Assembly: GCF_900116205.1 (NCBI RefSeq)
Contig: NZ_FOZS01000002.1
Location: 372,001-436,000 of the forward strand
DNA length: 64,000 nt
Direction of reading: 5' to 3'
Origin: Halostagnicola kamekurae
GTDB lineage: Archaea > Halobacteriota > Halobacteria > Halobacteriales > Natrialbaceae
Shown here: positions 60,642 to 64,000 of the stretch, in pieces
Layout of the letters: each line of letters begins with the position of its first letter
Numbering within the stretch: position 1 is the stretch's first letter
Program-made: the position numbers and the translations under genes
Notes under the pieces: generated by a model
What the model was told of the DNA's origin: nothing
The model's input: the letters and a program-made list of their open reading frames with translations, nothing else
Databases searched by the model: none

Positions 60642-62783
60642 GTGAAATTCGTCGCCGCAGAGTACGATGAGACAGGACGTGGAGTGGAGGCGGAGCTAAC
60701 CGTGTGGGATCGTCTCAAGCGGTGTTTTACGGCCGACGATATCGGTGTCTGCTATTATCGATTTCCAATTGTCGACCAGCAGAACAATGATCTCGATCGG
60801 GAGGCTGATTTCGTCGTTCTTCATCGTAAGTATGGCCTCGTTGTGATCGAGTGTAAGGGATACAAGATCGATCACATCCGCTCAATCGAGGGCGCAAAAT
60901 GGACACTTTCTGGAATCAGTCAGGATACAGCTGCTCCGTACTCACAGGCACGAGATCACGGGTTCCGACTACGTTCTCCGATGATGCGAGAACGATCACT
61001 GGTCGACGAGCGGGGAAACTGTGACATCGTAATGACACCGATAGTCGCACTTCCAAACGTGACTCGAGCGGAGTGGAAGCGACGCGGGTTTGACACTCTT
61101 CCATCAACGCCCCGTGTGATCTTGCAGGACGATCTCTCGAAGGTCGCACTTCGAGATGTGTTCGAATCACTTCCGGGCGACGATGTTCTTACTCGATCAC
61201 AGTACGAAGACGCACGGGCTGTTCTCGGCGGCGGCCAGGCAATCAGTGGCGAACGGGGTCCAGTGTTGGCAGACAGGGATACGAAGGCAGGACTCTACGA
61301 AACCGTCGAAAAGGGATTGAAACGATTCGACGACCGACAGGAAGAGATCGGAGTTCAGATCCCCGATGGTCCCCAGCAGATTCGCGGCATTGCGGGTTCG
61401 GGTAAAACTGCACTGCTAGCACGAAAGGCGGCCGCAATGCATGTGAAACACCCCAACTGGAAAATAGCGGTGACGTTCAATACCCGCAGTCTTTATCAGA
61501 CGATTCGGGATTCGATACGGAACTTCTACGCTGATTTTGGCGGTAAGGAACCCGACTGGGACCGTCTCGAAGTCCTTCATGGGTGGGGAGGGAAGCGTGA
61601 ACACGGCATGTACTACAAAATCGCGCAGGATGCCGGTGTTTCTCCGCATCATGTTGGTTCGGCTCAGGATGCATTTGGTGATGGAAGCCCCGGAGAATTA
61701 CTCGAATCCTGTTGTCAGCAACTCGTTGACGATGCGCCAATCCAGGAGCGTTATGATGCAATCCTTATCGATGAAGCACAGGATATGGAACCATCTTTTT
61801 ATAAAATGTGTTATGAAGCGTTAAAACCACCAAAACGGCTCATCTGGGCATATGACGAGGCACAGAACCTCACGAGCCTCTCTGCGCCAAGCCCAAAGCG
61901 GATCTTTGGAACGAACCATGCTGGTGAACCGGCAGTCGATCTGAGCGGCTCGTATACAGGCGGTATTCAAAAGAGCCAGATTATGCGAAAATCGTATCGA
62001 ACGCCACGGTCCGTGTTGTTGCTGGCCCATGGTTTCGGAATGGGACTAACGAGCGACCGCGGTGCCGTGCAGGCAATTACCACACAGGAGGGCTGGGAGG
62101 ACATCGGTTACGAAGTACTCGAGGGCGACTTCCGTCGAACGGGTGAACCAGTATCCATCCGTCGCCCACAGGTACACTCGCCACACCCACTCTCTGATGA
62201 CCCGGAGGCAAAACCGTTCGTCGGATTCGATACGTTCGAGCGGAAAGAAGACGAATTGAACGCCGTTGCTGATGCCATTGCGGTAGACGTAAAAGAGCAT
62301 GGACTCGAACCCGAACACGTCCTCGCGATCCCACTTGGCTCGATTACCGATATCCGATCGATCGGGCAGCGACTAACCGATCTGCTCGCAGAACGCTCTG
62401 TCGACGGCAATCTCGTTTGGGACGGCAACAAGAGCGTCTTCGCTGAACAGGGTGCAGTAACAATTTCCGGGATCAACCGTGCGAAAGGAAACGAAGCGGC
62501 GTCCGTCTACTTGCTAAATCTCGAGTACCTGGAGAACCCTTACTGGCACGATAACCGTGTTAGCCCGCGAAACGAGGCGTTCGTTGGTTTGACCCGAACT
62601 CGAGCGTGGTGCCAACTTACTGGAACTGGTAGCGGGAACGGAATATTCAGAGAACTCAACCAACTCATTACCGCTGTTACTGACGAAGACCCGGTGCTAA
62701 CATTCCCTGCACCAAATCCGACCAATCTCGAGAACGAAATCGGAAATGACGAGACGATAGCAACGTCGTTCGACCAGTTCTAA
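60642..62783 (+). CDS. NERD-domain superfamily I helicase
   Basis: 713 residues from a GTG. An N-terminal NERD nuclease-related domain (about 12-140) has READFVVLHRKYGLVVIECKGY (split at about 52-73), with Asp, Glu and Lys at the usual D-ExK positions. A UvrD-type helicase follows: Walker A GIAGSGKT (about 248-255), DEAQDMEPSF (about 375-384), a YDEAQNL segment (about 405) and a C-terminal 2B-like part with INRAKGNEAASVYLLNLEY (about 610). Codons are slightly less GC-rich than in pyrE. Related NERD-helicases occur in defence islands and as solitary genes; here no partner is evident. Confidence 0.88.
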   Translation: MKFVAAEYDETGRGVEAELTVWDRLKRCFTADDIGVCYYRFPIVDQQNNDLDREADFVVLHRKYGLVVIECKGYKIDHIRSIEGAKWTLSGISQDTAAPYSQARDHGFRLRSPMMRERSLVDERGNCDIVMTPIVALPNVTRAEWKRRGFDTLPSTPRVILQDDLSKVALRDVFESLPGDDVLTRSQYEDARAVLGGGQAISGERGPVLADRDTKAGLYETVEKGLKRFDDRQEEIGVQIPDGPQQIRGIAGSGKTALLARKAAAMHVKHPNWKIAVTFNTRSLYQTIRDSIRNFYADFGGKEPDWDRLEVLHGWGGKREHGMYYKIAQDAGVSPHHVGSAQDAFGDGSPGELLESCCQQLVDDAPIQERYDAILIDEAQDMEPSFYKMCYEALKPPKRLIWAYDEAQNLTSLSAPSPKRIFGTNHAGEPAVDLSGSYTGGIQKSQIMRKSYRTPRSVLLLAHGFGMGLTSDRGAVQAITTQEGWEDIGYEVLEGDFRRTGEPVSIRRPQVHSPHPLSDDPEAKPFVGFDTFERKEDELNAVADAIAVDVKEHGLEPEHVLAIPLGSITDIRSIGQRLTDLLAERSVDGNLVWDGNKSVFAEQGAVTISGINRAKGNEAASVYLLNLEYLENPYWHDNRVSPRNEAFVGLTRTRAWCQLTGTGSGNGIFRELNQLITAVTDEDPVLTFPAPNPTNLENEIGNDETIATSFDQF

Positions 62784-62805: not shown

Positions 62806-62972
62806 GCTTTTATCCTGCTCGGGATAATCCGTATCTACGATGGTAGGTGTCCGCTTTACAGGGGCTTTCGCCCACTTCTAACCCTCACCTACCGCTCGCT
62901 GTGTCGGCCTCACCTCACAGCAGAGCGGCACACGCGGATGCCCGACCGAACTTCTCGCAGTTACGGAAGTTC
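62806..62972 (+). ncRNA. structured leader RNA of thrS with a 13-codon leader frame
   Basis: TATA-like CTTTTATCC (62807-62815) predicts a transcript starting near 62838, at the ATG of a 13-codon frame (62840-62881: MVGVRFTGAFAHF). Over it, GGTAGGTG (62842-62849) pairs with CACCTACC (62886-62893). A second stem pairs CCGCT-C-GCTGTG (62892-62903) with CACAGC-AG-AGCGG (62916-62928), overlapping the first by two bases. A third pairs GAACTTC (62948-62954) with GAAGTTC (62966-62972), 24 nt before the thrS start. Such a leader is unusual where most messages have none. Confidence 0.55.
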
Positions 62973-62995
62973 ACCAGTCAACAATAGCCACAGCC

Positions 62996-64000
62996 ATGTC
63001 AGAACCAGATCCACAATCACAGTCATCGGAACAGATCAGCGTCGTACTACCGGACGGGTCGGAACTCGAGGTCGACGCCGGCGCGACGGTCGAGGACTGC
63101 GCCTACGAGATCGGCCCCGGACTCGGCCGGGACACGGTCGCCGGAAAACTCGACGGCGACCTCGTCGCCAAGGAGGAACCTGCCTACGACGGCGCGGCAC
63201 TCGAGATCATCACCGAGGGATCGGACGAGTCCCTCCGGGTCATGCGCCACTCGGCGGCCCACTGTCTCGCACAGGCGGTCGAACGGCTCTACGACGAGCC
63301 GAAACTCGCCATCGGCCCGCCGACGGACGACGGCTTTTACTACGACTTCGACGACCTCGACGTCGACGAATCGGACTTAGCGGAGATCGAGGCGGAGATG
63401 GAGGCAATCGTCGACGCGGACTACGAGATCGAACGCGAGGAAGTCTCAGTCGAGGAGGCCCGAGAACGGCTTGCCGACCAGCCCTACAAACTCGAGCTCC
63501 TCTCCGAACTCGCCGAGGAGGGCGAGCGTGTCACTTTCTACAGTCAGGGCGAGTGGGAGGACCTCTGTGCCGGCCCCCACGTCGAGTCGACGGGCGAGAT
63601 CGGCGCGGTGAAACTGCTCGAGATCGCGGGCGCGTACTGGCGCGGCGACGAGGAGAACCCGATGCAGACCCGCATCTACGGCACCGCCTTCGAGGACGAG
63701 TCCGACCTCGAGGCGTACTTACAGCGCCTCGAGGAGGCCGAAGAGCGCGACCACCGCAAGATCGGCAACGAGATGAACCTCTTCTCGATTCAGGACGTGA
63801 CCGGCCCCGGCCTGCCGCTGTATCACCCGCCGGGGAAGACGATCCTGCGAGAGCTCGAGTCCTTCGTCGAAGACCTCAACGAGGACGCGGGCTACGACTA
63901 CGTCGAGACGCCCCACGTCTTCAAGACGGACCTCTGGCACCGCTCGGGCCATTACGAGAACTACGAGGACGACATGTTCATCTTCGACGTGGGCGACGAC
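62996..64000 (+). CDS. thrS: threonyl-tRNA synthetase, 5' part (cut by the window end)
   Basis: 335 codons without a stop up to the window edge. A TGS domain (about residues 14-75) is followed by the editing domain with HSAAH (about 84-88) and the second metal/zinc-binding part DLCAGPHV (about 184-191), the bacterial-type editing domain that removes serine wrongly attached to tRNA-Thr. The class II catalytic part begins at [10 protein letters not shown] (about 255) with [15 protein letters not shown] and [16 protein letters not shown]. Most archaea carry another editing domain, so this thrS is of the bacterial type seen in haloarchaea. Confidence 0.95.

Follow-up and report, generated by a model that had tools for sequence, protein, structure and literature searches.

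The leader of thrS in the haloarchaeon Halostagnicola kamekurae is probably a threonine-sensing, autoregulatory translational leader that works by +1 ribosomal frameshifting. It was studied in a stretch of 64,000 nucleotides (the window, whose coordinates are used throughout) and compared across 139 distinct leaders; these sequences are related, and counts made on them are independent only where parsimony or contrasts were used. Comparative sequence evidence establishes that a mini-ORF in the leader is translated, that it contains an invariant TTT ACA, that two stems (P1 and P2) are maintained, and that a frame lying +1 to the mini-ORF is open, phase-locked and closed by a stop at thrS.

Mini-ORF and stems of the thrS leader

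The thrS gene (62996..64000, forward strand, running past the window end) encodes a bacterial-type threonyl-tRNA synthetase (ThrRS) with Pfam TGS and tRNA_SAD domains, and its reading frame of 690 aa is intact in the genome from which the window is taken. A TATA-like box, TTTTAT, recognised by its sequence at 62808..62813 on the forward strand, is the candidate promoter of the leader, and its position predicts a transcription start at about 62838-62840. The family alignment is gap-free from this box to the ATG of the mini-ORF, and the spacing is therefore constant; from TTAT to ATG it amounts to about 30 nt at the window leader versus 29 nt where thrS itself is leaderless, as in Halorubrum and others. 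Since the spacing is constant and matches that of the leaderless thrS genes, the AUG of the mini-ORF is predicted to lie at the end of the mRNA. In Haloferax volcanii, leaderless transcripts make up 72% of the total (PMC4983044).

The mini-ORF, MVGVRFTGAFAHF* (62840..62881, forward strand), is predicted to be leaderless and is found in all 139 leaders. In the window it has 13 codons, with ATG at 62840 and TAA at 62879-62881. The peptide follows the pattern M-[VA]-G-x-x-F-T-..., most often MVGVRFT(G/R)xxARF. The mini-ORF frame shows 56 synonymous changes among the 106 substitutions counted in 55 disjoint sequence pairs, versus 31.7 expected when the same substitutions are placed at random (z 5.5), and the other two frames give z values of -0.5 and -2.3. 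The frame is also kept through a 3-nt insertion and through a much longer one in leaders L022 and L205. Judged from this pattern of change, the mini-ORF is a translated leader peptide, and it carries a codon of the regulated amino acid, as the leader peptides of attenuation systems do.

The leader folds with a z-score of -4.0, and only 1 of 200 shuffled sequences is as stable. The 5' strand of P1, GGTAGGTG (62842..62849, forward strand), overlaps codons 1-4 of the mini-ORF and forms 8 bp with the 3' strand CACCTACC (62886..62893, forward strand), which begins 4 nt past the mini-ORF stop. Compensatory replacement occurs in P1 variants such as GGCAGGTGTC/GACACCTGTC and GTCGGTGATC/GATCACCGAC, the latter being a complete replacement of the P1 sequence in one leader, and for 10 of the 12 minor sequence variants the pairing of the 5' strand is better with its own partner than with the 3' strands of others. 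Gly codon 3 (GGT) keeps T as its third base in two leaders though the P1 partner there is G, and a constraint other than P1 may act on this base.

P2 is an interrupted stem between CCGCTCGCTGTG (62892..62903, forward strand), of which 62892-62893 are common to P1, and CACAGCAGAGCGG (62916..62928, forward strand). Two-sided compensatory changes are present in 8 of its 10 pairs, 90.7% of cells are paired, and its covariation score is reached by none of 500 shuffles. In several other families the 3' strand of P2 contains a Shine-Dalgarno-like GGAG just before thrS. P3 is a hairpin at 62948..62972 on the forward strand, where GAACTTC (62948-62954) forms 7 bp with GAAGTTC (62966-62972), 23 nt before the ATG at 62996. 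Among relatives it occurs as GAACTTC/GAAGTTC, GGACTTC/GGAGTCC or GAACGTC/GACGTTC and is absent in others; it is thus lineage-specific. The predicted start, the 13-codon frame and the three stems had all been described in the original prediction and lie where it placed them. It had named a lack of compensatory changes among relatives as grounds for giving it up; such changes are present in P1 and P2, and that objection falls away.

The minimum free energy fold also pairs mini-ORF codons 3-5 (62847-62854) with a strand after P2 (62933-62942). The own partner fits better in only 4 of 6 variant groups, and the partner covaries in the GTCCGC, GTCTGC and GGCTAC groups; this long-range pairing is lineage-specific at most.

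One invariant Thr codon within P1, together with a conserved mini-ORF and conserved stems, would also suit classical ribosome-mediated attenuation, in which a stall at the single Thr codon alters the stems and thereby exposes thrS or prevents termination. However, P1 and P2 share only two bases and appear to be compatible, and neither mutually exclusive stems nor a terminator switched by ribosome position was found. When ribosomes were simulated at ACA or at the mini-ORF stop by partition functions with a blocked footprint, the accessibility of the thrS start was not consistently altered across 112 leaders, and switching of the stems by ribosome position was rejected on this ground. Attenuation also leaves the +1 frame, its phase and its stop codons unexplained, and it is considered unlikely. 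Of what had originally been proposed, a structured leader with a translated mini-ORF is borne out by coding selection and covarying stems, and threonine control of thrS is very probable; the idea of stems switched by the ribosome is not supported.

Binding of tRNA-Thr or ThrRS, which had been proposed as well, is not favoured either. The RNA would then be read without translation, by uncharged tRNA-Thr on UUUACA in the P1 loop in the manner of a T-box, or by ThrRS on a tRNA mimic as in the E. coli thrS operator. UUUACA is indeed nearly invariant and located in the P1 loop, and UUACA could pair with UGU and the next two bases of the tRNA anticodon loop. However, no Rfam family, the T-box included, reaches its gathering score anywhere in the window; no partner for the tRNA acceptor end was recognised; and no NGU-loop arm of the kind expected for ThrRS operator mimicry is obvious on inspection of the predicted folds. 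The ACA lies in a region translated in frame, under coding selection, whose reading frame, stop and synonymous pattern are conserved, and the insertion variants L022 and L205 retain that frame. Neither T-box-like sensing nor ThrRS binding explains the +1 frame, and this type of control is regarded as very improbable.

Candidate shift site and the +1 frame

The proposed shift site is TTT ACA at 62855..62860 on the forward strand, identified by comparison of the leaders, with UUU in the P site, the putatively hungry Thr codon ACA in the A site, and G or C as the next base. The sole Thr codon of the mini-ORF is ACA in 139 of 139 leaders, in nearly all of them as codon 7; the codon before it is TTT in 138, and the base after TTT ACA is G or C in 138. 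In 38 genes of the window ACA accounts for 5% of Thr codons and TTT for 16% of Phe codons. A conserved shift-prone P-site codon is thus followed by a codon expected to be slow in the A site, as in known +1 frameshifting. Entry at UUU-ACA would explain why the first codon is TTT and never TTC, since UUU is decoded by wobble and a +1 slip requires that the next two positions be UU; it would also account for the constant use of the rare ACA as Thr codon and for the identity of the gene, thrS. Against a slip counts that UUA is an imperfect re-pairing target for tRNA-Phe, with A opposite G34. The only leader without TTT, L260 (GTG ACA), has an ordinary ATC in thrS and no +1 stop, which gives the impression of a system in decay. 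The 30 tRNA loci examined, of 43 matches, include no tRNA-Thr(UGU), and the window contains no tRNA genes.

In the window, the +1 frame runs from CAG after the slip to TAG at 62985-62987 (62859..62987, forward strand); this stop stands at -11, 8 nt before thrS, and the predicted product is MVGVRF followed by 42 residues. Between the mini-ORF stop and thrS lie 36 to 327 nt, depending on the leader, and in 112 of 139 leaders this distance is divisible by 3. When it was mapped on a thrS tree of 118 leaders, 72 changes of the distance were counted but only 16 of its residue modulo 3; 39.7 +/- 3.5 residue changes would be expected at random, and a number as low as 16 was reached in none of 2000 simulations. 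Between the mini-ORF stop and position -30 of thrS, stops occur in frame 0 in 7 leaders, in frame +1 in none and in frame +2 in 17 (132 leaders), corresponding to 5, 0 and 11 changes by parsimony. In 126 of 139 leaders the first +1 stop is located between -35 and +45 relative to the thrS ATG, versus 7 and 11 for the other frames. In 17 genomes that were added after the phase pattern had been noticed, the rule holds in 15 for the +1 frame and in 0 and 1 for the control frames. Since the +1 frame is phase-locked to the mini-ORF over variable lengths, ribosomes must enter it in or near the mini-ORF.

The position of the stop is reflected within thrS itself. Among leaders with a distance divisible by 3 that lack a +1 stop just upstream, 76 of 84 have ATA, CTA, GTA or TTA as the thrS codon that precedes the conserved VVLPDG stretch, and such an NTA codon followed by A or G makes the +1 frame read TAA or TAG. 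Where an upstream +1 stop is present in this phase, at -5, -8, -11 or -17, NTA is found in 1 of 23 leaders and the codon is otherwise ATC, ATT, CTC or the like (Fisher p ~3e-15, kinship ignored). The window leader belongs here, with TAG at -11 together with an ordinary ATC. Eleven phylogenetically independent contrasts gave 9 for the association, 0 against and 2 ties (two-sided sign test, 0.004). Genes of thrS without the leader have NTA before VVLPDG in 0 of 25 cases, and NTA makes up 4% of Ile, Leu and Val codons in the window genes. In three leaders whose +1 frame enters thrS in another phase, TGA is made by TCT, GCT or CCT before GAA, and in three further leaders the +1 stop and the thrS start overlap as ATGA or TGATG. 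About 13 of 139 leaders violate the rule on stop position: for instance, no +1 stop was found in two, in three it lies at about -67 to -69, and in three others the +1 frame fuses in phase to thrS without a stop. In these last three a frameshift would yield an N-terminally extended ThrRS. As far as comparison of the leaders can tell, the +1 frame is under constraint and its stop at thrS is selected.

It is conceivable, though very doubtful, that base composition, repeats and shared ancestry account for the +1 signature and that the leader is an ordinary 5'-UTR with a constitutive upstream ORF. The sequences are related, every frame is poor in stops when compared with shuffled sequences (7, 0 and 17 versus about 38 expected), and hexamer repeats before thrS can alter its distance by multiples of 3. 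However, in each of the 9 informative independent contrasts the choice between ATA, CTA, GTA or TTA and ATC or CTC is opposite with and without an upstream +1 stop, the pattern was replicated in the genomes added later, and the leaders in another phase make their stop in the matching phase.

Two further ways of translating this region were tried and rejected. A real protein in the +1 frame is not supported, as the downstream region shows no synonymous excess or selection at the amino-acid level in any frame, a result that is compatible with the frameshift model without being predicted by it. Readthrough of the mini-ORF stop into thrS, with which frame 0 is often in phase, does not fit either, as frame 0 stops in several lineages and shows no pattern of stops near thrS.

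A rival that is somewhat less improbable than attenuation, yet still unlikely, dispenses with frameshifting and assumes two overlapping upstream ORFs. Translation of the +1 frame would start independently at a GTG (nucleotides 8-10 of the mini-ORF), continue to the thrS start and be coupled to it, and the mini-ORF would compete or sense. This GTG is present in all leaders except L022, L205 and L260, and it would explain an open, phase-locked +1 frame equally well. However, in L022 the +1 frame contains neither ATG nor GTG nor TTG 5' of the shift site, and yet its +1 stop is kept, made by an ATA codon of thrS. Initiation 7 nt from the mRNA end would be neither leaderless nor led by a Shine-Dalgarno sequence, and in Haloferax volcanii such short leaders (at least 6 nt) are rare and GUG starts are weak (PMC4983044). 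Moreover, a GTG start gives no reason for the invariant TTT, for the invariant ACA or for coding selection in frame 0.

Entry by frameshifting is therefore preferred over the GTG start. The zero frame is translated and ends soon after the shift site, and the new frame is open; the stop of this upstream frame lies near the thrS start or overlaps it, as is found in termination-reinitiation. The original prediction had overlooked the +1 frame, which with its stop at the thrS start points to frameshifting and translational coupling instead of stem switching.

Proposed mechanism and known systems

From these patterns we infer a response to threonine, its direction, the slip as the entry to the +1 frame, and coupling as the output. 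Transcription would begin at or just before the mini-ORF AUG, and the mini-ORF would be translated as a leaderless ORF. With plentiful Thr-tRNA, ACA (codon 7) would be read and the ribosome would terminate at the mini-ORF stop, while P2, in some lineages together with P3 and a paired Shine-Dalgarno-like sequence, would remain folded and thrS would be poorly translated. If the Thr-tRNA that reads ACA were short, the ribosome would pause with a weakly wobble-paired tRNA-Phe on UUU; slow decoding in the A site is known to favour +1 frameshifting (PMC5009743). A +1 slip from UUU to UUA would then bring CAG or CAC into the A site, and the mini-ORF stop would be bypassed. The shifted ribosome would cross the leader in the +1 frame and terminate at most a few tens of bases away from the thrS AUG, and there the opening of structure (P2), reinitiation, or both would raise the level of ThrRS. 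In Haloferax volcanii termination-reinitiation has been demonstrated, and Shine-Dalgarno motifs serve reinitiation and not de novo initiation (PMC6728339). The traversing ribosome appears to be the more natural opener, since folding with a stalled ribosome leaves the accessibility of the thrS start unchanged on average.

Regulatory +1 frameshifting, as in prfB and antizyme, and control by leader peptides are both known modes of regulation, and E. coli has served for decades in the study of starvation-induced ('hungry codon') frameshifting. In the ermC leader ORF, a frameshift induced by macrolides or ketolides lets the ribosome run into the regulatory structure. The thrS leader would share with ermC a stress-induced frameshift in a leader ORF; however, ermC is a bacterial resistance gene induced by a drug, whereas the signal proposed for thrS is amino-acid supply. 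As in the trp, thr and ilv attenuation leaders, the leader peptide contains a codon of the regulated amino acid, but there is one codon and not a run, no terminator is seen, and the output is apparently a change of frame rather than a switch of stems. T-box riboswitches and the E. coli thrS operator likewise exert leader control over an aminoacyl-tRNA synthetase gene, whereas the leader described here is translated and has no Rfam match.

In known autoregulatory +1 frameshifting the shift takes place at a slow A-site codon and its efficiency reports the level of a product or metabolite (PMC5009743), as the model for thrS assumes. There, however, decoding is slow at a stop codon and the protein itself is the product of the shift; in the thrS leader the codon is a sense Thr codon, the leader ORF is separate, and the shifted ribosome would only reach the next gene. 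The yeast Ty1/ABP140 site CUU_AGG_C is similar in that the P-site tRNA slips onto UUA at a slow, rare A-site sense codon and no stop is needed (PMC5009743), but it is not known to be regulatory, makes a fusion protein, and has Leu instead of Phe as the P-site tRNA. Known termination-reinitiation also involves a stop near or overlapping the next start and a Shine-Dalgarno sequence used for reinitiation (PMC6728339); in contrast, the upstream frame of the thrS leader is proposed to be reachable only by frameshifting, and its stop often lies 28-43 nt inside thrS.

A 2016 review by Atkins and colleagues states that no starvation-specific trans-frame products were known (PMC5009743). In the available part of a 2021 review of archaeal recoding, only one demonstrated cellular -1 case, one suggested case and a few viral cases are given, and no leader ORF that senses an amino acid by a hungry sense codon is named (PMC8211752); nor was a precedent for such a leader ORF found in the open-access literature. 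The thrS leader may well be the first natural gene control that senses amino-acid starvation by a +1 frameshift at a hungry sense codon, and apparently also the first case in archaea of an aminoacyl-tRNA synthetase controlled by a leader ORF. If true, hungry-codon frameshifting would have a natural, evolutionarily tuned use in archaea, and haloarchaea would adjust the supply of an aminoacyl-tRNA synthetase otherwise than by the T-boxes of bacteria. The model gives specific predictions for one base of the slip site, for one codon and for a peptide junction, VRF-QGLSP, that is unique.

Distribution and surroundings of the leader

A covariance model of the leader with 59 positions was searched in 391 haloarchaeal genomes, and the leader was found in 121 of them in exactly one copy each. 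In the family of the window (Natrialbaceae), 115 of 125 genomes have the exact core pattern, and two more members have a variant leader with the long insertion mentioned above (L022 and L205). Three near-complete genomes of the family lack the leader and have no match to this ThrRS at E 1e-30, which suggests that the bacterial-type ThrRS was replaced by another ThrRS. Nearly all genomes of the family with a bacterial-type thrS thus carry the leader. It is also scattered in other haloarchaeal families, in certain genera only; among the matches listed, Halorubellus has it, and Halorubrum, Salinigranum and Halobonum do not. A thrS gene without the leader is usually itself leaderless, with a TATA box about 29 nt before the ATG. 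Between genera the DNA identity of the leader is about 70-81%. The leader is real and conserved well above chance. No leaderless mini-ORF was seen 5' of the inspected PF00133 and PF00587 synthetase genes of the same genome, for which the assignment of starts was crude.

In one leader an insertion of about 70 nt forms a very stable hairpin and the mini-ORF is lengthened to MAGVHFTGRAFARFYSRN; the +1 stop near thrS is retained. In the window, a gene for a NERD plus UvrD-helicase protein (60642-62783) lies between a pyrE-like phosphoribosyltransferase gene and the thrS leader. It looks like an insertion, since in the leader region of a congener the pyrE-like gene is located immediately 5' of the leader promoter.
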